Source: Monosporascus cannonballus (taxonomy: Eukaryota; Ascomycota; Sordariomycetes; Xylariales). From it: DNA of 64,000 bases. The notes under the pieces were generated by a model that saw only the letters and a list, made by a program, of their open reading frames with translations, made no database searches and was not told where the DNA came from. This document shows, one piece after another, positions 4,317-59,600 of this stretch. Position 1 is the stretch's first letter. Each line of letters opens with the position of its first letter. The stretch spans positions 44,869-108,868 of the forward strand of contig QJNS01000259.1 in assembly GCA_004154925.1 (NCBI GenBank), given 5' to 3'. The position numbers were made by a program, and so were the translations under genes.

Positions 4317-4764
4317 TCAGTTATATGCTTCTGTGTGTGATGTCAGGGTCTCATAGTAATGAAGCGCCGAGTTTCCTTCATCGCCGGTGTAGTTTATAGT
4401 GGATCTCCCTCTATTGGAGAGAATAGTTGTGCTTATGGCTGTATTATTCCACGCGGCAGGATTCATCAGAGCCGTCGTTCCATAGTCCGTCGCCGCAGTG
4501 ACGTCCGCACCTTCGGACACCAAGTAGTCCACTACCATTAGGTGTTCCTTGAACGCGGCCATATGGAGGGCGGTCTCTCCATCGTTCGATACCGCATCGC
4601 TAAGGGCGCCGTTCTCGTATTTTCACGATGTCGAGTGCACCATGGTGTGCTGCAATCATCTGGAGGGCGAATTCCTTCCCATTTCAGATGTTTGGATTAT
4701 GCGTTTTGACGAGGCGTCTGACGTCGACGATGGAGTTGTTCTCCACGGCATCTTTGAGATTCAT
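4317..4764 (-). pseudogene. Ankyrin-repeat protein pseudogene
   Basis: Read on the minus strand from ATG 4764-4762, the product begins MNLKDAVENNSIVDVRRLVK, a usual start of an ankyrin array. It then hits TGA at 4686-4684. In the same frame it continues with FALQMIAAHHGALDIVK, an ankyrin helix pair. A one-base gain in an A run (TTTT on the plus strand, 4620-4623) then shifts the frame. The next frame carries NGALSDAVSNDGETALHMAA and FKEHLMVVDYLVSEGADVTA, two clear repeats, and ends at 4317. The stop fits CGA to TGA, a RIP-type change. About three repeats remain. No NACHT or other N-terminal domain is seen upstream, so it is either a small ankyrin protein or a fragment. If the extra A is a sequencing error, the internal TGA would still break the gene. 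Confidence 0.8.
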
Positions 4765-28640: not shown

Positions 28641-30064
28641 AAAATAAAATCTTAACCTATCTAAGAACGACTATAACACTCAATAACTAACGAAATTGTT
28701 TGTAACCCGCTATATAATCTGGTCATCGGCTAATTCACAGCTTTCTAATCATAGATTTTAATTATCTAAGTTTGTTACTACGTTAAAAACATTTATTATA
28801 AATTTCCAAAACATCTTAGCATTATTAATAAACGGTTAATAATAAAACATGCTATCTGGACGTTTAAACTGAGGATATAGTGCGTCGTACAGTGAATAAG
28901 TTACGGCAGATGGCGTATTTGTATCGTTAAATTCGTTAAGAAAATCTGTAAATAGCACAGTAAAAAAGATTAATTTTTACGTTAACTAATCGCTTTTATA
29001 CAATGAAGTTAGAGGTTTAAGTATATATATATCTTTTATCGTTAAGAAGTTATAGAATATGTTTTCGCGGTCTGTGAAATTTTAAAACAAAGTTTTTTTT
29101 AATTTACATTCGTTTAAGCATTTTAAAATATTGTAAATATAAAGGCGTCTTTTTTTAGTCATTATTTACAAAGGGAATCTAGATTTATTAGGCGACAAAA
29201 TATCCTTCTCGCATAATTATAAAGTTTTCATTCAGAAAAACCCTGTTTTTATTTTAAAGAATTAGCAATTTGTTTATTTAAAACAGTGCTTTTAATATAT
29301 ATATTTAAAGTCTTAAACAACTTCGTTTCTAGATATGCATATAATATATTTAACTAACTTTTATCTTCCGCATATTTTAACTTAAATAAACAGTTTTAAC
29401 GTGTTTTAACACATAAGATTTAGCGTTTTAAATTGGTTATTTTGAATTTAACTTAATAATAAAGAAGATTATTACGTATGTTTAAAATAATTAGATATAC
29501 GTAATTATCGTCATATTTGAACCGAATTATAAACTGCATTAAATTATTTTTTAAACTTTTTATAACATTTAAAAAGTATATATATAATTTGAAAGCGTAG
29601 ATACAAGATTTTGTATATAATATATATAATATTCTAGCTTAAATATAAAATAGAGAAATAAATTATAAAATAAATAAAATCAACAGTAGCGAAAAGTGAA
29701 TTAATAAAAGTAAAGAGATATAACTAATCTATAAACATACCTGCAAGGTATTTTAAATAGGAAAAAAGGCTATACGTAAGCACGTTCGAGAACTTTTAGC
29801 GCAGCATTGCTCTAAACAACACATTATCTTATCTTATCGTAATCAGGCCCTATTTTTAATGTCGTAGCTATTTTTTTCGATGCATTACGGCTAAAGCTCT
29901 TTTTTTAAAAAAGAATCAAGCCCTAAAAAGCTTACAGAAATTGTAATACAAGGTTTACTATGGCCTATTTTTAAAGCCGTTTTACATATTATTAAATATA
30001 AGCCTCAAGGAGTTTCTCTTAATAAAAATAGGGTAAAAATCAATATAAAAACAGAAATTATATA

Positions 30065-30923
30065 ACGTATTACATAAGCTCGCGACTTAAACAAGCTCGC
30101 GACTCGTTTTTTGAAGCTTTGCTATAATTAATCCAAACAACTTAACCACAATATATTGAATTAATTTAAATCGACCGTAATCTTCATCGCTAACTATATA
30201 TATAGCCTTAGAACAAATATACGTATTATATCAAGGCTTGCTACGGATGCTATATTGTTATTTTTTTTAACCGTTTTGTAACCGACCACCTTTTAACGCG
30301 TTTAACTTAATATTACCTCCATTTCGAAAGCACTGAAACTGACCGACAAAAAAATAATTACCGACCGAATTCTCAACCTATATACGCGAACGTTTTTTAT
30401 CCGGCTTTAATACGTGGAAAATATTCGCAAAATCCGTCGTATTAAAAGATTACAAAGCGCGTTGTAAGGCTGTAGGGCAAGGCTATAGGGCTTGTTACAG
30501 GGCACGTCTCGAGGCGCGTCGTAAGGCGTATCGTGGTATTACAGGATTTGTCAGAGCAATAATTCGATTTTACGTATTTAAAATAATTAAAACAAACGTT
30601 TCTAACAAAAAAAATCTTTATTATACGGAATAAACAAATTTTTTCGATCGATAAGAAAGGTGGTAGTAAGAAATTCCTGTAAATCGCTGTTAAAGATAGC
30701 AATTGCAAAAAGGTTAAACGGAAGAAATGGTAATATGGCGCTTGCAACAAGCCTTAATATAATACGTACATTTGTTCTAGAGCTGTATATACAATTAGGG
30801 ATAAAGAATACGGTCGATTTAAATCAATTATATATATTGTGGTTAAATTATTTGAATTAATTGTTACAAGATTTCAAAAAACGAATCGCGGACTTGTTTG
30901 AGTCGCAAGCTTGTGTAGTACGT
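30065..30923. mobile_element. Long-inverted-repeat (foldback-type) DNA element, 859 bp, TA-flanked
   Basis: The left end reads acgtattacataagctcgcg and the right end, reverse-complemented, reads acgtactacacaagcttgcg. TA sits directly outside both ends (30063-30064 and 30924-30925). The inverted repeats are long: about 225-265 bp of 30065-30325 match the reverse complement of about 30660-30923. The shared words keep their order, for example taaccacaatatat, atttaaatcgaccgta, agaacaaatRtacgtatta and aaggcttgYt. TA duplication and ACGTA tips fit a Tc1/mariner-type element. The interior (30330-30655) codes for nothing recognisable, so it is non-autonomous. It contains a run of imperfect repeats around the word gtaaggc (about 30465-30540). 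Confidence 0.75.
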
Positions 30924-31439
30924 TAGTATTATTATTGATATATTTAAAACGGCTTTACAGTTCGATATCAAACTGCTTAGTCGTAGCTATTTTAAAAAAG
31001 ATATTACAACAATAAAAAAATGCTTACCTTTTCAATAATTCTATTTTTAACGGAATATGAAATCAGAAAAGTCTGGTTAATAATTTTTCGCATTTATTAA
31101 ATAATTGTTTTATAGATTTAGCTATTTATATAATATAAATATAATTACATTATTCCCAACATTATAATATTATATTTTTAGTCGTATAAATAACGGCATT
31201 TTTTAATATATTTATATTTAAAAACCCGTTCAACTGTTCTGTAATTAATGTAAGTTATAATTGTTATGTTGTAATTATAACAAGCCTTAATATGTAATTA
31301 ACTTTAAAGTTAGGTATTTTTTTAAAAAAACAAATAACTATAAAACGCAAAAAAAGCACCTTTTTCGGAAAATTCGTTCTAAATTCTTACTTTTTTCTTT
31401 TAGGAAAATTGGATTTAATTAGTTAATTTTAATCTGTTG

Positions 31440-31826
31440 ACACAGTACATTGAAATACGAGCCAGCTTTGCCTGAGTTCCTCAGGCAATCGTCATCCTCA
31501 TCTAGAAAGTCTTTTACCAATAAAAATTTTCTCCAATTCATTTGACCATGAACAAGCCAAGATATGCAAAGCCCAACTAGTGCTTAGTGACGTGTTCTTG
31601 ACCCAGCACTCCAAGTATGCAGCCTCTGCTTTTCATCACATTTTCCAAAACGATAAAGATGCAGAATGAAAATCATCGACTTTCAACACTACAGATTACA
31701 TCCATGCCAGAATGAAGTAGCTATTAAAGAGAGAAGGCATCCCATCTATTTGTTTCTCCCGTCAGAACTCTACACAAGTATTCTTATCACTTATTCCATC
31801 AACAGCATCCCAATCGACTCGCAATC
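31440..31826 (+). promoter_or_regulatory. Upstream region and probable 5' leader of the small gene
   Basis: Composition turns normal at about 31440, so this is the only un-RIPed DNA in front of the gene at 31827. The last 90 bases are pyrimidine-rich with little G, as fungal leaders often are. No clear TATA box is seen. A plus-strand frame stays open from about 31455 to 31668 (roughly 70 codons, with residues such as AQLVLSDVFLTQHSKYAASA) but has no ATG. It may be a decayed exon or chance. Confidence 0.4.
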
Positions 31827-32198
31827 ATGGTTTACTACGCCTATGCCAAAAACGTGAGTACCTACTCACTATGAAATCAGTCCAAGAAAATCCTAACTTT
31901 TGAATAGTCCAATGACGATTGGTCTTGGCGATATGTCATCATCGCTCCTACTTTCCACATCCTCAATGACTGGTACAACGCGGTCAGGGGCAGAGTCGGA
32001 GAGGATGTACTCTGGCGGGTTTCTGATGATTTCTACGTCTTCAATAGACAGAGGCTCAATCTTGGAAGAAGCACCACCACAGGCGCAGAAGCCCCTCAGT
32101 TCATGAACAAGCTGATTTTTCAGCTGCTCAGCGACAATGAGGGCAGAAACATTACTACTTTTGTTAATGAGCTTGCAAATACACGAACTGCGGCCTAA
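31827..32198 (+). CDS. Small intact two-exon gene, 105-aa protein of unknown function
   Basis: Exon 1 is 31827-31853 (MVYYAYAKN) and exon 2 is 31908-32198, ending in TAA. The 54-bp intron 31854-31907 has GTGAGT at the donor, CTAAC shortly before the end and TAG at the acceptor, and joins in phase 0. The ATG lies in gcaatcATGG, a good fungal context. The protein is hydrophilic and lacks Cys. It has several aromatic residues near the start (DDWSWRYVIIAPTFHILNDW), a middle part with Arg and Asp, and a C-terminal stretch (FMNKLIFQLLSDNEGRN) that looks helical. No signal peptide or membrane segment is apparent. I recognise no family. Codon third positions are mixed and not AT-biased, unlike the flanks, and there are no RIP stops. 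A longer antisense frame at 31893-32291 overlaps it, but the plus-strand reading is better supported by the intron. Transcription is not shown. Confidence 0.72.
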
Positions 32199-32678
32199 GC
32201 ACCTTCCCTTTTTGATATTTATGGCTTGGCAACATTGGAAGAAGTTTGCGGCAATTCCCCAGCTTTTCATGCCACCATCACGGATTACCATAATAGTTAG
32301 GTCACACGCAAAGCGAGACCAAATTCATTCATTTGCAGGTTCATTACAATGAATGATAAATCCTATTCCCTCATGCTTTCTCTCATTTCCAGCCACATTT
32401 GCGTCATGCAACTGAACTGATCTACCCTTCAGTAGATGTGTTGGAAATCTGATTGACAACTCACACGTTCTCTGTTCAAACCATGTTTAAAGGAAAGCCT
32501 TGTGCATAGATACGACGAAATCCCTAGGAGCAAATCGTAGAAAATGACCACTAAATAGCGACCATGGCTCTGCACGGCTTAGGTATTGGTCGTAGACTCA
32601 AGTTCTCATTGGTACATATATGCAGGTACATGGGACCATCCGGTATAGGATAATTAAATCTTGAAGTTAATACAATTA
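32199..32678 (+). other. 3' flank of the small gene up to LTR-A
   Basis: Normal composition continues to about 32670, then an LTR-A copy begins. The stretch should hold the 3' end of the transcript. I see no further reading frame that I would call a gene, and no hairpin that stands out. Confidence 0.5.
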
Positions 32679-33076
32679 TGTGACGGCTAGGGGGTTTAAC
32701 CAACTATTAAACCTTAGTCGTACAGGTTTATGTTGGTAGGAATATCATGGGAATCTGAACAGCGGATATAATAACTTGTTACGTCTCGTAATACCAAAAA
32801 TCCCTTAGGGAACAAATTATCATTAAAAGTTGGTGTAATTTAAATTATGGATCTATCGGTCATATATATCCATATCCTGGCTTAAAATACTTAAACGGCT
32901 TAATCACTTAAAGTTCTTAAACTCGTTAAATTTTTTTTTCAACAATTTAAAAGGCTTAAAATATTTGATATCTTAAGGTTTTTAAACTAGTTACGTAACT
33001 TCGTAATAATAGTCGAAATATAATTCTTTTAAAAATGGACCGTTTATAAATTAACTAAAAGCGTTCAATTATAATA
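32679..33076 (-). repeat. LTR-A copy 4 (antisense), weakly RIPed
   Basis: The left end tgtgacggctaggg is nearly unmutated, and the right end is tataata followed by cgattttttccaaaatc, the reverse complement of a purine tract. This is the variant with CTTAA-type internal repeats (32880-32990), which makes it longer (398 bp) than the 352-373 bp of the plain variant. With the copy at 35069 it can be read as the 3' LTR of a 2.7-kb minus-strand element (32679-35420). No matching target duplication was found. Confidence 0.65.
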
Positions 33077-33488
33077 CGATTTTTTCCAAAATCTTTATTT
33101 TTAATAATTAAGTCGTTTATTTATTAATTTAAACAAATAAGTTTGTTTTATATTTAATATATTACATCGTATTTAAGAATTTGGTTTTAGCAACAGTATT
33201 AATGTTTGACTTTTAATATACATTTTAATTTTCGGAATAAAAAAAGTAAATTACTAAATCGCCTATGATTCCTCAAAATATATTTGGTGTATTCGTTATA
33301 ATAATTCTCATAATGTTTTCCAACTATAGAAAACAAAATATTAAATGTGTTTGAATTTACAAAACCGTTTATAAGATAGAAAGAAATATCGTCGAAAACT
33401 AATTCGGGCCACTGTTAACAGATTTAACCGCATATCGAAACAAAAACAACTTTTTCGTCGTCGAAATATTAAAATATTTCGTCTTAAT

Positions 33489-35068: not shown

Positions 35069-35420
35069 TATGACGGCTATGCGGTTTAACCAATTATTAA
35101 ACCTAAGTCGTACGGGTTTATGTTATCAGAAATATCGTGAGAATCTGAGTAATAGATATAGTAGTTTATTATATCTCGTAATATGAAGGGTATTTTAGTT
35201 AACAAATTATTTAAATTAGGGAAAGAATAAATATATATTTTATACAGGCTATTTGGATCTTTATTAGATTTAAATCTTATTATAGATTTAATGTTATTGG
35301 ATTCAAATAATTTTATATAGATTTACTTATGTTTTTGACGTTAAAAAAGATCCAAAATTACGTAACCTTTTTGCGTAGATCCAACCGCTTTCGCGACCGC
35401 TCCTGGTTTGGGTCGTAATA
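35069..35420 (-). repeat. LTR-A copy 6 (antisense)
   Basis: It runs from tatgacggctatgcggttta to ggtttgggtcgtaata, 352 bp. The right flank is ordinary AT sequence without the purine tract seen beside copies 1, 3 and 4. It therefore fits the outer edge of a 5' LTR of a minus-strand element. Confidence 0.65.
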
Positions 35421-37222: not shown

Positions 37223-40200
37223 TCTTATATATTTGTATTTAATAATATTATTATTATTGTATCGATTAACTAATAATTACTTTACGATATTTTTTAAAAT
37301 ATATATATATATTAAATTTAATTAATAATAAATTTATTTAACTTAACAAAACCTTTTTTAATGATCTAACTTTCTACACGTATGTATTGTTTTTTCTTTT
37401 TTTGAAAAAGAAGGTTTATCGAATTATTTTGAACGAAACTTGAAAAATTCGAATATAAAGATAAAATAAAAGATATTAAAACATTTTTTAAAATAGATTA
37501 AATTATATAATTAAATTTTAAAAAAATTAATAATAAATTAAAACGCTTTTAAATTGAAATTATTTAATAATATATTTATAAATTATAATTACTTTTAAAT
37601 AATATCAAACGTATTTCAGATATTCCTTTAATTGTTTTCTTATATTTATTGTATAAAAAAATATATAATCGGGTATTTTACAAATAACGTAGTTATTTAA
37701 TTTAGATATATTATAAAAACCTATATTCCTATATTTTCGGTAAAATAAAACCCAAATATTATATATATTTAAGTAACAATTATAAATAATTAAAGTAAAT
37801 ATTAATAAACTTTTTCGTAATAAAAAACAAAAGAAATAAGGACTAAAATATCCATTTAAGAACTTTAACAAAAAGTTTAATATTTAACTATAATTATATG
37901 TATATTTAAATATTGTTTAAATTAAAGTAAATATAAAAAGTATTAATGCTTAAGTTTTTCGACACTATAAACAATGTAAAAGGGCTATTTAAATTTAATA
38001 AAGTTAAACTTTTCTTAAAGTATATTTGTGCGATAATTACATTTAATAATTTAATAATATATTTACTATATAAGAAATATTAAAATTTAATATAATTATC
38101 AATTTTAAATAAATAGTAATATATCCTGATATAATAAGATTTTATATAATGCCGTATTAAGATTTGTAAACCCTAAATTTATATTTTATAATAATTAAAA
38201 ATATAATAATATAATTAAATATTAAGATTTATAAATAAATATAATAATAATTAAAAATATTATAATAATATTATTAATATATTTTAATATTAATATAAAA
38301 TAAGGTTATTATCATAAAAAACTATAATACATTTATGAATATAATTTAAACCTAATACAAAAAATATTATAATAATACAAACCTTTATAAAGAGTTAAAT
38401 TAATACGTATTAAGAAAATAATATTATACTTTAAAAATAATTTAAAAAAATAATAAAACAAAATAAAAAAATAATTTAAAATCTTTAATAAATATAATAA
38501 AATAAAGATAATATATTAGAAACAAAAAATAAATTTAATATATAATAAATAAAAAAGATTATTTATTAATATATTAAATTTATATATAAAACTTATTTTA
38601 TTTTTCAAATTAAATCGGAAATAAAAAACAAATAAAATTTATTCTAAATATAATTAAATTATTATATATAAAATACTTTTAATAAATATATAATATTAAA
38701 AATTTATTAAAAATATAATATCTTTAAAAGGTTTTGTTTAACTTTTTATAATTTATATAATTATTAAATTATAAAAAGATTATTTTAATATATTATATAA
38801 AATATTATTAAAAAATATTATAAATTTAAAAAAAAATTAAAAAACTTTTAGTATAATTTACAATTATATTAAATAAATAATAAAATATAAAAACCCTAAA
38901 AGAATATTTTATAATATATAAAAATATATTTAATTTTAATAAATTTAATATAATTAGATAAAATATATTTTAAAAAATAACTTTAAAAATTTAATATAAA
39001 ATAATAAACTTAAACCAAATTTATAAAACTTAAAAATAAATTTAAAAAAATATTTAAAAAAATTATAAAATATTTAAATTTAAAAAAATAAAATAAAATT
39101 TAAATATAATACGAATAACCGATAATAAATATATTATTTTAAATATATAAATTAAAATTTTTAATATATTATAATAATAAATAAAAAATATTATAAATAA
39201 TTTTAAATTTATAAAATTATAAATATTAAAATTTATTATTTTAAATTTTTATTTAAAATAATATTAAATATTTAATTTGGATTTTATTGTATTTAAATAT
39301 TATATAATAAATTTATAAATTTATTAAATATATTAATATAAAATTATATAAAATATAAATTAAATTTATAAAATTTATTTTATATTTTATTAATATATAA
39401 AATACAAAATATTTTTATTTTTTATATATAATAAAAAGAAATTATAAATATAATTATAAAAATATATTATATTATAATTATTATTAAATTAATTTTAAAT
39501 ATATTTATAAAATAATTTAAAATAATAATAAATAAAATTATATAATATATTTTTTTAAAAATTTTTTATAAAATATAAATTATATATTAATAATAAAATA
39601 ATTTTAAATAATAATTAATTATTAATAAATAACTTATTATAATAATAAAAATTAAATTTATTTTTTATAATTATTTTAAAAAATTTTATTTTATAAAAAT
39701 ATTTAATTTATAAAATTAAAATTTAAAAATAAATATAAATATATTAAAAATAAAATAAATAAAAATAAAAATTAATATTAAAATATTATTTATATTATAA
39801 AAATATTTATTAATATTAAAAAAAATATAAAAATTTATTAATAATATTTTAATATATTATAAATTTTAAATTTTAAAAATTTTTTAATAATATTTTTATT
39901 TATTATTTTAATTATATTTCTTATATTTATATATAAAAAAATATAAAGATTATAAAATATTTAATATTTTTAAAAATATTAAATTATTAATTATTATAAA
40001 ATATAAAATTTTTAAAATATATTTAAAAATTTAAAATTATATTTATTAAATTATAAATAAATAAATATTAATAATAATAAAAATAAAATAAATATAATTT
40101 TAATTTATTTATAATTAAATTTAATAAAAATATTATATAATAATAATAAATAAAATAATTTAAAAAATTAAAATAAATAATTTTATTATTTTAAAATTAA

Positions 40201-41805
40201 TTTTATATAATTTAATATATTTTATTAAATTAAAAAAATATTCGAAAATATATATTATAAATTATATTTATAATTTATAATAATTAAAATATATTAAGTT
40301 TTTTATATTTTATTAAATTATTTAAATATTTTTAAATATAAAATTAATATATTTTATTATAATTTTATTTATTTATATATTATTAAAATTTTATAATATA
40401 ATATTATTATTAAATTATTTTATTATATATAATATATTTAATAATAATATTAAATATATTTTTAAATATATTAAATAATTTAATAATTAAAATTTAATAT
40501 TAATTATAATATTTTTATTATTATTTTTAAAATATTTATGTAATTATATTATAATATAATTATATAATATTATATAATATAATATATATAAAATAAATTT
40601 TAAATTATAATAAAAATTTTAAAATATATAAAATAAAATATTTTAACAAAATATTTTTTATTTTATAATTATATATTAATATAAAATTAATAATATATAT
40701 TTGATAAAATTTATTATATAAAATAATTTAAATTTTAAATTATTAAATAAATAATATAAATATAAATTTAAATAATTATATAAAATTATAAAATTAAATT
40801 TAAAATATATATATAATTATATATAAAATATTTAAAAAAAATTTAATAAAAATCTTTATTAAAAATATATTAAAATATATAAAGTAATTAAAATTTTTTT
40901 AAAATTTTATAATTAATTAAAAATTATATTTAAAATTAAATTTTATTTAATTATTTATATTTTATTTAAATTAAAAAAATATTATTAAATTTTATATAAT
41001 ATAAATTAATTTAAATTTAAATAAGAAAAATCAGCATAAAATAAAAAAGTTTTTAATTTAAAAACTTAAATTTAATTAATTTATAATTAAATAAAAAGAA
41101 TATTTAATTTTCGAAAATATTTAAAAATATATATAAAATTATATAAGTATTTAATATTTATTAAAACATATTTATTAATAATATTAATATCGCCAATAAT
41201 AACTTTTAAATTAAAATTTTTAAAAATATATTAATTGAAAAAATATTTAATAAAAATTATAATTATAATATTTTTGATTTTTTCGCATTTTCTTTTTTTA
41301 AATCGTCTATTATTTAAATTCTATAATTTCTAATTTTAACGTTTTAAATTAAAAAACTTTTTAACGATGTACACGAAAAAAATTATTGATACTTTTATTA
41401 ATATTTCGTTATTTATACGTTAACATTCTTTTTATTTTTTATTATAACTATAAAAGAATTGTTTTTTCGGTAACTGCTTTTTCTCGATTTAAACGGTTTT
41501 TTGTTCTTAATACGACGTAAAAAATCGATCGAAACGCCGGAATTCTCGCCAGGCATTAATTCTTAATATATTCGTTATAATTACGAATTTCGTTATTTAT
41601 TTAATATTTAATAGTAATTTCAAAATTATACCTATATATTATTATTTTCAAATTAAATTTCATAATATAAATAATTGAAGACCTTATACTTTCTTTTTAA
41701 TTCGAATTATTACAAAATTTACAATTAACTGTATAATTTACCGTAATAAAAGAACATTTATTAAAACAAAATCGTTAAAGGTAAATATCTTAGGGAAAAA
41801 ATTCG

Positions 41806-44985: not shown

Positions 44986-47900
44986 ATTATAATTACGTAA
45001 AAACGGCTTTATTTGATATATTTGCTTTTTTAAAAAAACAAAAATCCGTAATAACTTAATAATAATACGTTTTTATAAACATATATATATATATATACGA
45101 TTACTTTAATGATGGCTTATTATTAATATTACGATAATCCTAATCAGAATTTATTTGTTATTCTTAAACCTTAACGCATATAATAATTATAACCCGAACC
45201 CGTTATGTTATTATTTCTCCTTTTAAAATACGATAAATTCGAATTCTTTTAGTTTTTCCGGGTTACGCCCTTAAAATAAAATATACGTATATGGATTTTA
45301 AATTTCTGGTATTAATATAAAAAATTAATATAATGTTTAAAAGTTTTATTTGTAATTAGATTTTATACGATAATTTAAGCCAAATTATTAATTCGATTAT
45401 TCGGATTAATTAATTAATTAATATATTAAAAAAATAAATACGCAAATAATTATTAATATCTAAAGATTAATAGGAATTTTTAATTTTTATTAATTAAAAT
45501 CCTATTATATATAAATACCATAATATATTATACGAAAAATTTATAATTTTCGTAAAAGGGCTTGAATTCCGCCACCCGCCAAAAAAATTATTATTCGAAA
45601 TTAACGTATTTTATATTATTTTAAACGAAAATTAACGCTTTATAAAAATATTTACCCTTAATTAATTTAAATTTTTAAATTAAATAATTATATATTTAAG
45701 AAAAAAATAATAATCGTATAATACGAAACGGAAAACGAAACGGTTTTGTAATAATAACAATTCGGATATTTTTATATATCTTTTTTTCATAATCTTAATT
45801 ATTATAATTAAAATAATTTCTAAAATTAACGGCAATTATTGACCTTATTTATTAGGCAGGTTTTTATTATTTTCGTATTTATTACGGAATAATATTAATA
45901 AATTAAAAAGGTTAAATATTTGCAAATATTTATTATACGTTAAAAAAAATATAATTTCGGTTAATAAAGGAAATTAAAGTAACCATATTAATTCCTTTAT
46001 AATAATATAATTTTAATTAAAATGAATTACGTTTTATAATTAAGTACAATAATATAATATCATATTTTAATACGAAAATATAAATAGTTAAAATTATATT
46101 CGTAATATAACCATTTAATATAATATTGTTATATAAAATATTATTATTATTTTGCTTATTATTATAGCCGTATTTTTTAAAAAAAATTAAAGTAATCCAT
46201 ATTTTAGCTTAAATAATATTATAAAATAAAATAGTTTTATAAAACATTATAATAATATCTGGTATTATTTAATATTTTTTATTAATTCGTAATTAATATT
46301 ATCCGGATTTTATTTCCGGTTTTTGTTAATATATTTTATAAATATAATAAGCAAAATTTTTCCAATTTTCCCAAATTAAAATATATATTATATAAAAAGC
46401 ATTATTTGAGTTCGTTAAATGTAATTAACGAAAACGAAAGTATTATCGACGGCACTTATAATATTTATCGAAAACCTTTTTAAGGAATATATAAATATAA
46501 AAAAAATAATTTTATTAATTTTCGGAACGTTTTTGTTTTATTTATAAAGATTAGAAAATAATTAATTATATTCAGAAATTATAGGTTAATTAAGCCGAAA
46601 TAACCGATTTATACGATAAAAAACGATAACTTTTTTTATTTTTACTTTATTCCATATATAAATAAATTTTCTCTTCATAATTATACGTATTTATTAGCCC
46701 GATAATATAACCGGAATATATAAAATATAAATAATTTTAAAAATAAATCGTTAATTTTTAAATAAAATAATGTAATTATATTAAAAATTGTCAAAATTCC
46801 ATTTTTTCGAACTATTTATCCGTTATATATATAATATTTATATATTTGTATTATTTTTATAAATATTACGTATTCGATACGAATTATTTATAATAAAAAC
46901 ATTTAATATATATAAAATTTCCCGGAATATCTTAATTAAAAACTTTTTTTTGAAAATCGAATTTACCGAATTTATAGAATATATATATTTCCGGTTAACC
47001 GTCGCCGAATTTAAATTTATCGCATACAATATAGTTTTTAAGTATTTTGGTTATATCGGATAAATAGGAAAAATATTGTAGAATTTTAATTAAAATGTAT
47101 TAATAAATAAGGATGTTTTTAAAAAAGCTTTTTTATTATTATTCGTTAATAATACGTTATTTAATAATATAATTAATTTAACAGATAATTTATAAATATC
47201 TTATTTCTTTTATTTTAAAAATATAATTTATTTATATTATATATTAAATAATATAAATTTAATTAAAACGTACCGAATAAAAACTTTTTATCGGATAATT
47301 ATAAAGCGGAAATATTTTTAATATAACCGATATTTTATAAAGTAATAGCTTTTTTAACCTTATTAAAAATAATAATTAATTATCGATTAATACCGTTTTT
47401 ATCGATAAAAAATTACGAAATTATTATTATTTTTTCCGAAAAGCCCAAATTTATATATATCTTTCGTATATTATACAATATAACGACGTTAATTATATTA
47501 AACAGTTAATATCGATATTATTATTTCTTTTTTATAAGGCCGGTTAATTTAATTACGGTAAAAAGATATTTTATTTCGATTAAATATTACATTTTATAAT
47601 ATTAAATTAAATTCTTATTAATTCGATTTTAATATTAAGTTTAATTTCGATACAATTTAGGAAAAGAAAATATAAAAAATATTTAATCGAAAGGGCGAAT
47701 ATTATAATTTATAGCTTATTAACAAATTCCGCCGGTCGAAAAATAATATATATAATATTAATACTGTTTTTTTCCGAGTTTCGTATTTAATTAAATACCG
47801 TATATTTTTATAACGCGAATTTTATGCCCGTTATGTTTTTTTGCGAAATAAGGGTTATTTGGAATTTTTGTAACGATATTCTCGAACGTATTTATTTTTT

Positions 47901-49613
47901 ACTTTGGAATTTCTGGTTTATTAAAAGATATTTATTTCGGATTAAAAAAAATAATTAAAAATCCGAAAATATTTTGGTTACGAGTCGTAAAATTATAAAA
48001 ACTAAATTTATCGATTTTAATAATACCGTATTTATTGTTAATAACGTAAATAAGCTTAATTAGCTAAATACGGCAAAAAACGAAAATTAATTTATAAATA
48101 ATTTTAACGTAATTATCTAAAAAGCTTTTAATATCGAATTCGTTAAGGATAATTTGGTTCAAAATAACCATAATATTCCGCATATAAAAAAGTTATAATC
48201 TTATAATACAAATTATCGATAACTTAATTAATAATTTTAATTAAGGCGGTCCGTTTTATTATTATTGTTATCGGATAAGTAAAATAAAGGTTTATCGGAC
48301 GAAAACGAACCGTTAATATAATTTTTCATTTTTTTCCTATTTTATAATATATTTTTATATAAGCGATATAATATTTATATTATAATTTAAATATTAATAA
48401 AATTTTATTATTTATGTAATCTTAATAAATTAATATCGAAATCGTATTATATATTATTATAATTACTGAATTATTATATTAACGTAATTTATTTACTTGC
48501 GCTAATACAATTGTACATAAAAAAATATTTTATAATATAATAAAAAATATAATTATTAATAAAATTAATATAAGTAATTAAGTTTATAATTTGCATAATT
48601 TTAATTAATTATATTCTGTTCGAACGTTTTATTTTTTGTAAAATTATATAAAAATATTATATTATTTATATGGAAATATAACGTATAATTTCGGGTTAAC
48701 CCGTATATCCCGTTTATAAGTTATTTATTAATTAATATTTTTAAATATTTTTTAAGGTTTTTTTCTTTTTGTTCTGCTTTTTTTACGTATTATTATAATT
48801 TATATATTAATAATTCTTTTTACGTTTTCGGGTCCCAAAATCTTATTCGTTTTAAGCGTAATATTTATATTTAAATTTATTTAAAAAATTTTATTCGAAT
48901 TATATAATAATGCCAAGTATTTAAAAATTATATATAAATATTTTTCGCCGTATTTTTATACGTAATTTACCTATTTATTACTTATATAATTCCGTAAATT
49001 ATAATATTTATAAAATAACTATATAATATATATATTTTAATTAAGCAGCCCGGTTTATAAAATTATAAACCTTTTTTCGTATTATTTATATAATACCCGG
49101 TTTATATATTTTTTCGTTAAATTACGAAAGCCGTAATTAATCGAAAATCCGTAATTAATTTAATAATTTAATAATTTATAAGGCAAATATAATCCGTTAT
49201 AATGTAAATTTTATTTTATTAATTATTATTACAAAAAAAACTTTTAAATTATATTATTAATATTTAATATTTATATAAATATCGTATTTTTCCGTAATAA
49301 AAAGTTTTATTCGTAATATAAAGTTTTCGTAATATTACCGAATTTATAAATTTTTAATAATCGTAAGGTTTTTTTAATTAATATATATTTATATTAATAT
49401 TAAAACATAAAATATTTATTTTTTTCCAATTATCTGTTATATTAATATAAATTTATAATATATATCTAATATTTAAAATTGGTTAAATATAATATATATT
49501 TTTTATAAAAAATGTTTTATATTTTAAGATAATTAAATATTATTTAATCAATATAAAAATACCTTAATTAAAATTATGTTATTGTTTTCGCCTTATTATA
49601 AATTATTTTGGTA

Positions 49614-49800
49614 CCGGTTTTAGCTATTTTTTAATCAAGCATTTTATTACCCATTTTTAAAGTTATTTTTCGGAGATAAATTATTTTTGTTTTAGTATTT
49701 ATTCCGGTTATTTTTTAATTCGAGATTTTATTATTTATTTTTAAAATTATTTCGTAAAAGTAGGTTATTTTTCGGAAGTAAATTATTTTTCGGCGATATT
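49614..49800 (+). repeat. Tandem duplication, about 90-bp unit
   Basis: Unit 1 starts ccggttttagctatttttta at 49614 and unit 2 starts ccggttattttttaattcg at 49704. About 45 bases in each (…attttattaYYYatttttaaaRttat) align with transition differences, and both carry ttatttttcggaRRtaaatt. The unit count is two. Confidence 0.55.
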
Positions 49801-51513
49801 ATTATCGAATTTAATTTTTTAATTAGACGAACAAAACTTTTTAGGTTTATTTAAAATATATTATCGGGAGTTATAACGGATATTATTTTTATTATATCGG
49901 CAAAGAATTTATTTACTTTATATAATATCGTAAAATATATAAAAATATATATTATAATATGGATATCCGATATTAAGTAAAAAAATATTAATTAATAATT
50001 ATTATATTATAAATAATGTAATTTTATATATTAAAATATAATACATATTTGGAATTATAAAAAAGTATAATTAAATAAATAATATTAATTATATATTAAA
50101 TAATTATAATAATTATATTTAATATATATTTATTCGAAATAATTTAATAAATTATATTAAGACATTTATAATAAAATATCAAGGTTGTATAATTTATATA
50201 TAATTATTAAATTCTGTCTTTATATATTATTATTTTATTATAAAAAAATAATGTTAATTTTTTTATTTATATTTAATAACATATATAAATTTAATAATTT
50301 ATATATTTATAATTATATAATCTTAAAATATATATATATTTTAATTTTAATTATATATATTATTTTAAAATATTTTTATAATTTAGTAATTATCCGTAAA
50401 TTTTATTCGTATATTATAAATCTTTATATATTTCTTATTAATGTTAATAATATATTCAGTAACTATTTAATATATTAACTTCATTTTATTTATTATATTA
50501 TTTATTCTTTATTTATATTTTTAATTTTAATTAAATTAAATTTGTATTAATAAATTTTTAGGATTATTTATTTTTTTAATTATAATAATATATTTATATA
50601 TATTTAATATTACATAATTATTATAATATTATTATTATTATTTAATAAAATAAAATATCATAATCATATTTGAAAAATATATATAAAAATCGTAACGACA
50701 TTAAATTAACTTTTGATATAAATTATTTTAATTACGGCGTTATTTTTCGTATTTTATATTTTATTATATATATTATTTTTCCAAATTTTGCCCCAGCCTA
50801 TACAATAAACCTTTTTAAGTCAAATAATTATTTAATAAAATCCTAATATTATAAAGATTTTATAAGGTAAATTTTATTATTATATATTAAAAAACGTAAA
50901 TTATTTACCGTTATATATATATTAACGTATATTTTATTTACGAAAATTTCGGAATAATATTTAAATAAATATTTTAGAATTTTAATTATATATATATAAT
51001 TTATAAAAATTAATAAAAGATATATTTATATATTTTAATAACTTTTAAAATTCGTTTTTTTCTATATATTAAAATATAATAATAAAATTATTATTATAAA
51101 TAATACGGATTATTAAATAATAAATTTTTAAAATCGCAAAATAAACCTTTTCCTTATTATAAATTTAATTAATATATATTTTTAAAACATCGTATAATTT
51201 AAACCGTTAAGTATTTTCGGAAATTTATAATTTATAATAATTTGCGTAATATAAATAATATTAATGATAAAATAATCTTATAATTCCGGTTAAAAAATAT
51301 AAAACCGTAGTATATCTTATAATATATATTATATAAAAGTTATTTTCATAATATTAAACAAAAAAAATCCGTAATTATATATAATTAATTACCGAATAAA
51401 TAACTTTATATAAAAATTAAATTTTTAAATACCGTAATATATTTGGTATTAATATTAAAAATTTCGGCGGTTACCCGGAATATTTAATTATTATTATACT
51501 TATATAAAATTTT

Positions 51514-52170
51514 GATATAAAGGAATTCTTAGAATTAACCGAGGAAAAAATAAAGGAATTTTTAAAACCAGCTAAGGATTTAATTACGCCGATAAAGGAA
51601 AAACGCGGCAAAGGGAAAAAAATTAAATCCGGCTATTAACCTTTATTAAAGGAACCAAAAAACCCTAGTTCAAAAAAAATAATTACCAAAATCTTTAATA
51701 AAATAACAATAAAATATATAGGCGGCCTCGAAAAATATTAATTAGAACCGTACGCCGACAAATATTAATTTTAATTGTAAAAAAATAAGGTTATAAAACA
51801 TAATTAATAAGGATTTATTACAAACCCGGAATTTTAAATATTTCAAATTAATATTTAAAAAAATAAACGCCAGAATAACTATATTAATAACGAAAAAATA
51901 ATTTTCCTAATATTGGCAAAACATTATTTATATTATTTATTTATCCGTATAATTAATTTCTTACCCTAATTACTTAACCCGAATTAAGGTATTTTAAAAG
52001 TTAAAAAAAATATTTAGGAATTAATATAACAAATTCAAAAAAAACCGGAAAATAAAATTTAAAACTTTTAAATTCGATATCATAAATTAAAGGCTATAAA
52101 TTAAAAAAAATAATTTGCTAATAATTATAATAAATTATAATTCGAATCACATAATATAAAATTTCGTTGA
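51514..52170 (+). pseudogene. RIP-destroyed coding remnant of a repeat, family unknown
   Basis: From 51514 the plus frame is open for 41 codons and reads IKEFLELTEEKIKEFLKPA, then KDLITPIKEKRGKGKKIKSG. After that the same frame carries more than a dozen stops, every one TAA or TAG. All are explained by CAA or CAG (Gln) changed to TAA or TAG by C-to-T. Between the stops the text stays protein-like, for example IIFLILAKHYLYYLFIRI. The frame ends at a TGA at 52168-52170. This is the classic fate of a transposon gene under RIP. The domain cannot be named; a gag-like or replicase-like protein are both possible. Confidence 0.55.
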
Positions 52171-52553
52171 ACTTTTTAATTAAAAAAAGTTATTATATAT
52201 TTATTATAATATATAATTAATCCGGATTAAAACGAATTAATATTTTATATAAAATTTAATAAATTAAAAATTAATAAAAATAATAAATTTAATAAATAAA
52301 TAATATATTAATAATTTTAATTAATATTATATAAATATTTATAATTCTTGCGTTTTAGAACCGTAACGCCGCGCCGAAACTAAATATATTTTTTGTTATT
52401 AATTTTAATTAAAACTAGCAAAATTTATTTTTTATTTTTTAATTTAATATTGCAATTATTCTTTAATTTAATATTAATATTATTATCCGATAAATATTAT
52501 TTATTTTTAATACGTAATTCTTTAATTTCGATAAAAATTCTTATTTTAATTTT

Positions 52554-52742
52554 TTGGATATATTATTTATAATATCGGGTTATAAATTATTATATTTTGG
52601 CGATACCGGCGATATCGGTAATAATATAAAAATAAAGGAATTATACGAATATAAATATAATAACGAAAACGGGGTTAAAAAGTTAAAAATATTTAGGAAG
52701 GATAAGTTTTATACCGATATTATAAATAAAAAAATAAAATAA
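52554..52742 (+). pseudogene. Likely RIP-altered acidic coding fragment
   Basis: A 62-codon open frame includes GYKLLYFGDTGDIGNN and KIKELYEYKYNNENGVKKLK. Its many Lys and Asn codons (AAA, AAT) could be former Glu and Asp (GAA, GAT) after G-to-A change on this strand, which would give an acidic stretch. It lies about 400 bp downstream of the remnant at 51514 on the same strand and may belong to the same element. No family is recognised, and this could be chance. Confidence 0.3.
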
Positions 52743-55574
52743 GCTTTTAATTAAAATTACTTAATATATTATAAATTACATATATAAATATAAATATCGC
52801 CATAATCGAAATTACGACTCCCAATTGCAAAAACGTATAAATTATATGCCAATTTAATATTTAAATTATTACGATTACCGTTAAACCGTTAATTATTAAT
52901 TTAAACCGAATAACCGTATATAATACGTTTTAATTAGGATAAAATATAACTTAAAGCGGCCTGATAATTTTTTCCGATATTTATTGAATTTATAACGTAA
53001 TAATAATTCATAATTTATATAAATTATTTTGCGGTATAAAAATATAATACCGTTGTTTTTAATTAAACAAATTCCGCCGGTTACGGAAAATTATTTATAT
53101 TTTTTATAAAATCGAAAATATAATTTTGTCATATATTATATATAATGCAAAAAATAAGTAATTTTTTAAAATATCTTAATATTATTATTTATCGAAACCG
53201 GGAACCGCCATAATTAATTTAATTATATTTTAAATTAAATATAAACTGTTAATTTCGTTTAATTTATTCAGAAATTTATTAAGCAAAAACTATTTAAATT
53301 TAATGAAAATAAATATTTATTTTACCTTTTTATTATTAAACGAAAATAACCGTATAAAAAGTAATTCGTTCGCCTGTTATTTATATTAAAATTTTATTAT
53401 TTCTTAAATAACCGCCTTTACCGAATTAACTTTTAATTATTTTTACGTAAATATTTTCGAATTTAAAAATTTAGGTATATAAAAAAGTTAAACATATATA
53501 TATTATAATAAAATCTAACCGGAATTAAGTTATTACGGTTTTTTTAACATAATAATTTCATTTTCTTAAATATATTAAAATTACTTTACGTATATATTTA
53601 CCGTTAAATAATGCGTATTATTAAGGCCTTATTTTTATCCAATACCATAAATTAAAATTATTTTATTTCGGAAATATAAAAAAAAGATTTTACCGATTAA
53701 AAATTAAAATTAAAATTCGATAATTATTTTATGTTTATTGGGATTATTTGCGATAAATTTTATATTATTGTTTTTATTATTTAAATCCGTTACGTTATTT
53801 TTTATTATAACTTTTATATTTTTATAAATAATATAATTTTTAATTTATTAAGCTTAAATTTTTTTTATTTTATACTTTTTTAAAATAAACGATTCGATTC
53901 CATATTTATCGAAGGCTTAATAAAATATAAATAATATAATTCATTTATAATTAATTATATTTAATTGTTTATAATTACGAACTATTCGACCAAATCGTTA
54001 TTATACATTCTTAATCGAAAAACTTTACGATATATTTTATTATATTATTTAATTAATATCCGGAATATTTATATTTAATTTAAAAATAATTATAAATATA
54101 ATAATACGGATAAAACTATTTAATTATATTAAATTATTATATATACAAATTTAATTTTTATAAGGTATTTCGGAATTATAAAACCTAATAAGTTTTTTTA
54201 TAATTTTCGATAAATATTTTGGGTTTATTATAATTTGAATTAAATAATTACGGATATTTATAATTTTCGCTTTATTATTAATATAAATAATAATTTTAAT
54301 AATAAAACCTAAATTATTAAATTAAATTAAAAAATTATTATTTAATAATTTAAATATATTAATTATTATGAAATTTAAATATTTTTAATTTAAACGTTAT
54401 TTTTTAAATATAAAAAAAATAATAATATCGATTTTAGGATAATTAATATTAAAACGTCGGATTTCCGCCTTATAATTATATTTAATTAAGCCGCCAATTT
54501 AACGAAAACCGTTATATTTTGTAATTTTCTTCTTATAATATTATTAATAATTATTATATATACAAATTAATATATATAAATAAGGAAAATAAAATATAAA
54601 TTATAAATATTAATATAGTTAAATCGGAAAAAACTTTTTAAATAATAAATATATTTTATTAATAATAATTAAATTATATTATCGTTCGAAAATTAAATTT
54701 AATATAATAATTTGGAATTAATCGTTTGATATTTATTTAAAATTAAAAATAATATAATTTTGCGGTTTAACAATTATGCGGTTAAATATTTTTAAATTAA
54801 GTTTTTTCGTATCCGCAAATATTAAAATAAAAATAAAACATAAAATTATTAATATAAAAATTTGTTATTTTTCTATTAATTTAATTAATAATATAATTTA
54901 AATAATAATTAAATTAATTATTTAAAAAAACATAAATAATTAAAAATTTTCCGAAATTTATTTTAATAATAAAAAAATTTTAAGTTTTCCGAAAACTAAA
55001 TTATTTCTTATATTAATTTATTTTTTCCGTAAAATATGGCTTTATTTGTTAAGCGTAACATTTAATATAAAGCAAATAAATTAACGGCGTAAAAGTTCCG
55101 TAAAATTATCGGCTATATATATAATGTTAGCATATAGGGTAATTATGTTTATATCGGTAAAAACGCGGTAAAGGTATTAAATAAAAATAAATATTTAAAA
55201 GTTTAAAATATTTATGTTAAATTTTCGAATATATAATTTGCATTTAGTTAATTAAGAAAAAAATATATTTCGGAATTTATTACGAATAAATTTAAATTTT
55301 ATATATTATTATTTTAATTTATAAAGTTATATTATTATTATATTGGCCTAAAAAGGGTAAAAAGTTATAATATATATTAATTCAAATTTTAAATTATTTT
55401 TTATTATAATAATTTTTATTTTATTTTAATTAAAATTATTATTATATTAAAAAAATAAAGATTTTAATTTTACGTTAAATTAAATCAATTAAAATATTAA
55501 AAGTTTTATAATTAATATATATTATTTAAATTAATATTAATAATTTCTGCGAATTTATATAAAAACGTATTAAA

Positions 55575-55978: not shown

Positions 55979-58900
55979 CTACGGCGTTGCTGGGTTCAAC
56001 AATTGATCGTGAGCTGACTCCGGGGCGAACATTTTGCGGACAACAAATGCTCTTGTTTCGTGTATTTCTTTTCCGGTATCCTTTATGATCTTAATAACCT
56101 TATAGGAATTACCTGCTTCGGCAATGGAGAGCGGTGTTCGCCCATTCACGTCCGACACTTGGATGATTGCCCTTCTACTATTGACCAGTACCGCAGCCAC
56201 CTTGTCTAGAGTATCCGATGCCGCGGTATGAAGTGCAGTCCGGCCGGCCCGATCCTTGGAGTTGACGTCAACGCCATTCTTGATAAGCAAAGTCACACGC
56301 TTCTGGGTGACCCATCGATGCAGCCATCAGTAGCGCTGTCCTCCCGTCCGGATCTCTCTTTTCTTGTAGATTGTCCTCTGACAGTCTGCTCAGTAGACAT
56401 TTAATAGTTTTGACACATCCTCTCTCCGCCGCGATATTAAGAAGCGTGACACTTCCTTCGGTCCAGATGTCGACCCTTGTTAGACTCTTTAGGAGTATGT
56501 CAACGATATCGGTCTTGCCTGCCATGACTGCAAAACGGAGCGCGCTTTACGCCCCTCAGAGCAGTCTTTGAAAAGTTCCAGTCCGACCCAAGCCCTGAAA
56601 AGCTCCGTGACGTTAATCGCCAGTATGGCTGCCTTGTCAAGCTGTGTCCACCCAACATTGTCTTTGTCGTGTGCGAGTTGGAGGCCGATCTTTGACTCGA
56701 GGCAGGCTACGCTGATGCCGGTGTGCGGCGTCCGCGCTGTTCAAGTGGAGAGGATTTTCACCAAGATTCGATTTAAGGCATCTGATGTCTAAATCTGTCG
56801 GTAAGGCAGCGAGGAGGTATTTCATGACATCAACGGCAGGGGTACCCCCTCTTGCTGCCTCATGAAAGGGTGTATACGAGCCATGGGAGTTTTTGGACAA
56901 CAATAGGGATTCGCCTTCGTCAGTTGCGAGGATCTCCTCGACAGTTTTTAAATCCCCACCACGAATAGCTGGATGAAGCGTATTCTTATCACCATGAATG
57001 TAGACACCGGGGTCCGCGCGAAAGTCTAGGAGAGTCTTCACCATTTCGCGGCGTAATGGTGCCATTTTTGTCCTTGCTCAGTAGTTCCCCCGGGCCACAG
57101 TCTTTCAATAAAAGGTTTAGGGTAGACTTATGACCTCCTAGGACCTCCCAATGGGGTGCATTCCAAGAACTATCGCAGGACTGGCTCAGGCAACGGGCAT
57201 CGGCGGATACTAGGTCCTTGATTAGTTCGTCGAGGCCAAAGTAAGCGTACCAGTTAAGTGCATAGCCGCTGCAGTTTCTCGGTATGGCGTGTCCCTTCTG
57301 CAACTCTGATCTATGCAAGCTTATATCACTAAACGAGTCTAGGCGAATTCCCAGCCTGAGGCATTCCTCCGCACTTTTAAACTCATGCGAAGGTCGTATT
57401 CAAACGAGTACCGGGGATCCTCGAAGACCATATGTAGGAGCACATAAAATGCGCAGAGGAACTGGTCGTTGAGAGTCGTGAAACCTTTTATGGTATCTTC
57501 TAATTTGTTGCAGACGCTACTGCTGCAAGCCTCAATGTCGTTTTGTGGCGAGGAATTCTGCCAGTTGCGGGCCTCTCTTCCAAATTTTGGATGAATTAGG
57601 GGCCGGCATAGCCTGAAACTCTGCCTTGCATGGTGGCCCCAGTTCGCCGAGGCGTACCCGAGGAGTGGGTTGTTGCCGATGAATTCGTCGACTTCATTAC
57701 TGTTTTCTGTTAAAGCGGCAAGGGCGAACAATGGACGACTGAGGAATGTAAGACAGGTCGTCGCTATTTGAGCATCCGCGTACGGAAACCTCACGGCTCG
57801 AATACTTTTGAAGCACTCCTGGGTTGTATAGTGGACGAACCCAATGACAAGATTCGAGGAATCCACACTGACCAAACCTGCACAGACGGATACAATCACG
57901 TCACCAGGCACTAGGTCCTCTTCCCCCGAGCCGTCATTCTCCTCGGGGACAACGGACATTGCATACTGCAGCTCGGCTAACGTTAGCGGTTGTTAGCTGT
58001 AGCAAAGCCACGCGATGACTCTCTCAGCGAGGTCTCTTTCTTCCGGGTTCTGACTCTCAATTCGCGACAAAGCCTCGGCGTAAGTCTCTCTCACTGAGTC
58101 CTTCCCTTGCGGTAGGGCTTCAAGGCTCTTACGGACAGCTTTGGGAGTTTAACTTGGTAGCTAGCGCGTTGAGGTGAAGCTGGGCGAGAAGGAACCTAGA
58201 CTTTTCTTAGTACGCTGCTTCACTAGGGGGAAGCCTGGTGACTTGCATTCCTTGAGCCTTCTGAATAACCACCCTCGTGATCTCATGGGCCAGCTCAGGA
58301 TCTTTGGCAACATGTCGACCCAAACGGGTTTCGCAGTTCAGGCGCCCAGAAATATAAATCCGTATGTCCGAGTCCGCCGCATTTATCCTGAGGTGCCTCG
58401 AGCGTTCTGGGTCGAACATTTCGGTCTCGATATATCGTGAAGTTATCAGGAGGTTGACGTTAGGTCCCAGGTCCCGGAGCGCTACGAGCAGGGCTGTCCG
58501 GTGGTCGGAATGGAATTCATCCAATGCGTCCAGCAGAATGAAAACGCGGGAATATCTGGGCAATCTCATCCCGGAGGATGGTGAGGATCTCATCCTTGGC
58601 TGGCTTTACGTCTGGCTTCAAATAGGCGGGCTCGAAAATCTCGCACTCTTCTGTGTCAAACACCCGACTCCGCGCGAGCTGTTTCCATAGACTAGCCAGC
58701 ATCGTCCGCACGTCTTGTTCTCCCCGGTGCTTATAGTCGCAAGAGGCGTATATGATTTGAGTCCGATTTTGGGGCTGAAATTTGTGCCGCAAGTGGTCAA
58801 TCGTCGTAGTAACGAGAATCGTCTTGCCCGCCCCCGGGATCCCTTGGCACCAGAGGATATTGCCTTCGCTATGCACCCATTCTTGAAACTCAGGAGATTC

Positions 58901-59600
58901 TACGAACCACGTCCCAGTCTCCGGTACTCGGCTGGACCGAACGTCGCTCAGTTTTGATCCGAAGTCATAGGGAGCCATAAAGCACATAATCTTGTCGATG
59001 CGCTGTTGCCTAGCAGCATCTACTGCTGTCCCGGTATGGCTAGCGATACGGCTAACTTCTTCTTTGATGGGTTTTATGAGGGTGGTATCCTCCTTGATAG
59101 CAGCAGTATCGGACTTCACGGCGCTGGTCAACTCCCTATGTAGACTTGTTAGTGATTTTCCGCAAATCCGGCCTAGGGCGGCACTCGCATCAGCTTGTCA
59201 TCCAAAGCCAGCCCTACGAGAGTTTATAGTCGCTCGATCCTTCCTAGATGATCCTTTATGTCGTTCTTTCGAATAGGCCACATAAACATTCTCCCAACCT
59301 TCTGGGCGCCCTTTGCATATAAGTGTAGCTCCTGTGTTAGATCGACAAGCGCCGCTCTCAATTGGGTAAGCAGGTCCCCCCTATGGACCGGTTTATAGCG
59401 GAGCGTCATTCCTCCCACGTGCTAGGATCCTCGAGTCGCTGCTTAAGTCTAAATAGGGGGCCCAGACTGTTTGTAGCCTCGAGAATGAAATCTTGCTCTT
59501 CTTTGTGGATATTCTTCGCCGTATTGGCAAAGCTTATGAGCTTGGTCGTAACGTCGATCAAGCCCGCAGTCGATGCCACGAGGCCAACAGCCTCAGCCAT
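55979..59600 (-). pseudogene. NACHT-ankyrin STAND (NLR-type) protein, multiply broken
   Basis: The ancestral start is ATG 59600-59598. The product opens MAEAVGLVASTAGLIDVTTK, the pattern of the fungal N-terminal domain of STAND proteins. Next come a helical linker, then NACHT with Walker A GIPGAGKT (58843-58820), Walker B LLDALDE (58536-58516) and the LLITSRYIE sensor. A winged-helix-like linker with HYTTQE (about 57833) follows, then ankyrin repeats (about 57300-55979). Such proteins act as cytosolic sensors in fungal non-self recognition and cell death. Here the frame breaks at about 59410, 59200, 58545, 58160, 57330, 57060, 56750, 56560 and 56290, mostly by single bases. In-frame TAA stops also stand near 59224 and at 57995-57993. 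A 51-bp GC-AG intron (58246-58196) is still perfect. The single-base shifts could partly be assembly errors, but the stops of CAA-to-TAA kind argue for a real pseudogene. Confidence 0.88.
58196..58246 (-). other. GC-AG intron in the NLR pseudogene
   Basis: On the minus strand the 51 bases run from GCAAGT to TACTAAGAAAAGTCTAG, with a branch-like TACTAA close to the acceptor. Removing them joins IQKAQGM to FLLAQLHLNAL, the normal NACHT-family sequence at this place. Left in, the frame runs into a stop. The donor is GC, not GT, a rare but known class. Confidence 0.65.

Follow-up and report, generated by a model that had tools for sequence, protein, structure and literature searches.

The 64,000-nucleotide stretch of the Monosporascus cannonballus genome analysed here (contig QJNS01000259.1, positions 44,869 to 108,868 of the forward strand; hereafter, the window) carries, close to its centre, a small spliced gene embedded in AT-rich DNA. 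Specifically, exon 1 on the plus strand (31827..31853, 27 nt) provides codons 1-9 (MVYYAYAKN), followed by a phase-0 intron of 54 nt (31854..31907) with the elements GTGAGT, CTAAC and TAG and by exon 2 (31908..32198), which holds codons 10-105 and the stop. Translation of the joined exons gives an open frame of 105 amino acids, while two stops are met if the intron is left in. The initial annotation, made from the DNA letters alone, had proposed this same stop-free two-exon frame. The spliced product is identical to an NCBI entry, the hypothetical protein DL766_007718 of Monosporascus sp. MC13-8B (P0001), in which exon 1 is the same and the intron is likewise removed; in other words, the gene was already annotated before the present analysis. 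Moreover, protein matches to the product from further genera of fungi reach E-values as low as 2e-46, more than chance would give, and the gene is confirmed as real and intact. The longer antisense frame said to overlap it is also present (132 amino acids, 31893-32291, minus strand); it has no Pfam match, the large protein search not having been run on it. The gene model, the family membership, the single-copy state and the repeat surroundings described below are all direct results of computation.

An intact island in DNA marked by repeat-induced point mutation

The gene is contained in an island of about 1.2 kb (31401..32600) free of the signature of repeat-induced point mutation (RIP), as the initial annotation had perceived. 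In 200-bp windows from 31401-31600 to 32401-32600, the TA/AT ratio is 0.33-0.86, the (CA+TG)/(AC+GT) ratio 1.11-2.36 and the GC content 36-51%, whereas on both flanks the ratios become RIP-like. The open frame and these dinucleotide ratios agree with its description as undamaged by RIP. On the left, the 26 kb of AT-rich DNA previously indicated were recovered from about 5.5 kb onwards, with 17-33% GC in 1-kb windows.

RIP targets repeated DNA. When the genome (88.8 Mb in 618 contigs) was searched for copies, the segment 31420-32540 was matched at its own place alone, and the same holds for 30950-31430. The gene would thus have escaped RIP because this process acts on repeated sequences and the gene is single-copy, and its survival in the AT-rich desert needs no special cause. 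A single-copy gene stands intact between strongly RIPed repeats, and no spread of RIP into it is visible in the dinucleotide ratios from a repeat 481 bp away.

This repeat (32679..33214, plus strand), which starts with TGTGACGG 481 bp beyond the stop of the gene, is a dispersed, LTR-like (long terminal repeat-like) element whose right end differs among copies. With the best 40 of 2915 candidates scored, it has 47 matches, its own place included; of the others, 39 are long and 66-76% identical to it. Accordingly, of the claim that an LTR begins some 480 bp to the right, the position and the dispersed nature of the repeat stand, and its identity as an LTR is plausible, not proved. A second, partial copy lies in the same orientation at 35071-35215 (77% identity over about 147 columns). 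To the left of the island, an element with inverted arms of about 204 bp (30056..30933) has relatives throughout the genome, namely 107 matches up to 88% identical over parts (best 40 of 203 candidates scored). It is rich in CpG (56 in 30001-31000) and its site coincides with the GC maximum of the left flank, near 30-31 kb.

Other parts of the window show distinct features. Ratios among its most strongly RIP-like are found at 45001-54000, where (CA+TG)/(AC+GT) is 0.39-0.67. A tract of very low GC spans 38000-41200 and reaches 0.6% at 39501-40500, against 16-25% in most of the surrounding RIPed DNA; it is not a clean tandem array, and 84 overlapping rows with 60-88% matches were recorded. On the minus strand, a fragment with ankyrin repeats (4320-4622) lies in a short stretch of balanced GC content that occupies 4.0-5.5 kb, to the left of the desert, and pieces of an NLR-like (NOD-like receptor-like) gene at 55982-59197 include a Nephrocystin-3-type P-loop domain (E-value 1.4e-23) and ankyrin repeats. 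In the genome paper (PMC7407469), MC13-8B is given as a pathogen isolate of M. cannonballus with 89.29 Mb, and the related strain GIB2 as having 174 gene-free contigs of 24.76% GC.

A domain family with two architectures

A search with the product retrieved 25 matches from 25 candidates, one of them being the product itself, and even the least significant has an E-value of 6.8e-23. They derive from Aspergillus bombycis, Penicillium spp., Massariosphaeria, Curvularia, Dissoconium, Pseudopithomyces and Metarhizium, and from unnamed metagenome proteins. Identity of these relatives (Penicillium, Aspergillus, Metarhizium and other ascomycetes) to the spliced product ranges from 55 to 79%, being 75-79% for Penicillium and Aspergillus and 55-68% for Metarhizium. 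A first family profile, built from 21 of the 25 after omission of P0016, P0019, P0024 and P0025 for odd ends or a gap, found 39 matches among 7185 candidates, the new ones being further Aspergillus proteins and the first proteins with two domains. Four of the latter or of partial proteins served for a second profile (A3), which gave 240 matches, 120 of them listed. Among those listed, mushroom fungi make up the majority of the named rows, and ascomycetes account for eight (four Aspergillus, two Pyronema, one Trichoderma and one Fusarium).

The two-domain proteins, of about 220-260 amino acids, are more distant relatives; in them the domain forms the N-terminal part, and an added C-terminal half adopts a beta-trefoil in the structure model. 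The Monosporascus product has as its nearest relatives single-domain proteins of 97-110 amino acids, close to its own length, and itself ends at the domain boundary. The product matches the family profile over its full length, the exon-2 frame scoring an E-value of 1.4e-31 against a 72-row profile of the N-terminal domain that includes P0001. The versions of Pfam and NCBIfam used hold no model for this domain and gave no consistent match for the product or the family members. The best reading is that the gene encodes, as a stand-alone protein, one copy of a domain that occurs in higher fungi and has no name; from its initial residues it is here called the YAYAKN domain. Alignment A4 has 13 columns that reach at least 85% conservation across its 12 single-domain rows and at least 75% across its 58 two-domain rows; since these columns are common to both architectures, the function of the domain is probably similar whether it stands by itself or is fused.

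The position of the intron may also be shared by relatives. Of 155 proteins fetched, 108 could be anchored by pattern, of which 92 begin in the usual way and 16 were flagged, and 47 could not. By eye, half of the flagged proteins change sequence at the intron site (P0016, P0019, P0035, P0039, P0088, P0101, P0104 and P0143), and the remaining eight have near-usual starts or were wrongly anchored. In five of the eight that change, proteins alone being compared, a Q immediately precedes the change point, as expected if a phase-0 intron with CAG at its end had been left in. An intron after residue 9 may then occur in ascomycete and basidiomycete relatives alike. P0018, from a contig of 1343 bases, reads straight across the junction, which either a spliced transcript or a gene lacking the intron would explain.

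Origin, fold and possible function

The initial annotation had regarded the gene as a candidate lineage-specific orphan, and its small size, isolation and AT-rich setting are what a young gene private to Monosporascus might show. Such a reading is rejected by the 25 matches, itself included, across several fungal genera, some of them close relatives, by the two-domain form in mushroom fungi and by the existing annotation, so that it keeps virtually no probability. In its place, the gene is assigned to a large unnamed family spanning ascomycetes and basidiomycetes; the accompanying suggestion that the gene was kept by selection would fit such a conserved protein family, and its alternative, a late arrival, may also apply. 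Another reading is that the gene is in decay and represents what is left at the N-terminal end of an earlier two-domain gene, repeats and RIP having removed the beta-trefoil. The repeat starting just downstream would agree with this, as would the failure to find a beta-trefoil in the six frames of the window (best E-value 1.1). We consider this very improbable, as the nearest relatives are themselves single-domain proteins of similar length, the frame is intact and the family residues are retained. About as improbable is a secreted effector active in the plant. Effectors of Leptosphaeria maculans are known from AT-rich compartments, and the location is of this type; on the other hand, the moulds and mushrooms bearing relatives do not generally attack plants, and the absence of cysteine together with the lack of a hydrophobic start argues against secretion. 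In particular, 12-residue hydropathy near the N-terminus peaks at 1.32 in P0001 and at 1.57 among 20 single-domain proteins, and cysteine is absent in 14 of these 20, the other six having one or two. No signal peptide was therefore evident, as first noted, from hydropathy and cysteine counts alone, no dedicated predictor having been run, and the product is probably cytosolic.

A possibility that deserves more weight, even if we hold it to be rather unlikely, is that the gene was acquired horizontally from a different filamentous ascomycete, one resembling Eurotiomycetes or Dothideomycetes, and settled in the AT-rich compartment, where RIP would so far have spared it. The top identities to Penicillium and Aspergillus rather than to Metarhizium and the patchy distribution among named taxa would be in keeping with it. 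A tree of 32 sequences drawn from the 155 proteins, moreover, places the Monosporascus protein outside Metarhizium, in a group of 14 rows with A. bombycis, Penicillium and Dothideomycetes, and constraining it to join three Metarhizium rows costs 14.7 log units and is marginally rejected (p-AU, approximately unbiased test, 0.044). However, the 14-row group has no internal resolution and is not starred (94/94), the constraint with four Metarhizium rows costs 13.5 log units with a p-AU of 0.075, and Metarhizium and Penicillium rows each occur in more than one branch, so that old duplicates followed by losses fit as well.

Several structural results weigh against the preferred interpretation of the product, as a probably cytosolic stand-alone copy of the YAYAKN domain. 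Its model is modest (pLDDT, predicted local distance difference test, 79.8; five models, 48.2-79.8), with residues 86-105 poor, and the modelled fold has no convincing match among solved structures; even for the two-domain model, Foldseek gave nothing at an E-value of 0.001 or below (best 1.1e-3). In addition, several relatives are named 'PH domain-containing' in UniRef, a label neither confirmed nor excluded. P0001 has no Pfam match, PH included, one of 72 family members has a PH-like match (E-value 0.16), and the order of strands and helix in the product model differs from the PH order.

Keeping to the stand-alone YAYAKN domain, we have reasonable, though not high, confidence in its identity, family and cytosolic action taken together, and are much less sure of its exact role. 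Published fungal beta-trefoil proteins such as cocaprins (PMC9104457) and CCTX chimerolectins (PMC13324453) are lectins and protease inhibitors with proposed roles in defence. Since the published proteins with this fold are of these kinds, the product might, by analogy and tentatively, be a cytosolic binding module that would either contact whatever partner the N-terminal domain has in the two-domain proteins or pair with itself, in a setting of fungal intracellular defence or self-regulation. A broader and doubtful proposal is that higher fungi possess here a domain not described so far, whose fold may be new; moulds would use it by itself and mushrooms joined to a beta-trefoil, for intracellular defence or recognition, its patchiness being due to many losses or to transfer and its single copies persisting as intact islands in RIP-destroyed DNA. 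The two architectures, domain alone and domain with a modelled beta-trefoil, make function testable by structure and binding assays.

Compared with known systems, cocaprins and CCTX chimerolectins resemble the C-terminal part of the two-domain relatives in the beta-trefoil fold only, a sequence relation not being shown, and differ from the Monosporascus protein, which has no trefoil; CCTX2 further differs in having four N-terminal trefoils and another C-terminal domain. The two-domain mushroom proteins (for example, BOTBODRAFT_106834 and P0038) correspond to it in their N-terminal 100 or so residues, with 37% identity for P0038 and the 13 conserved columns in common, and depart from it in the C-terminal part. 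The single-domain proteins of Penicillium, Aspergillus and Metarhizium (for example, N7540_012643, ABOM_001081 and J3459_010058) differ in the PH label that some of them bear and in not being known from RIPed deserts, but they are full-length homologues of the Monosporascus protein, with 68-79% identity, similar length and no added domain.
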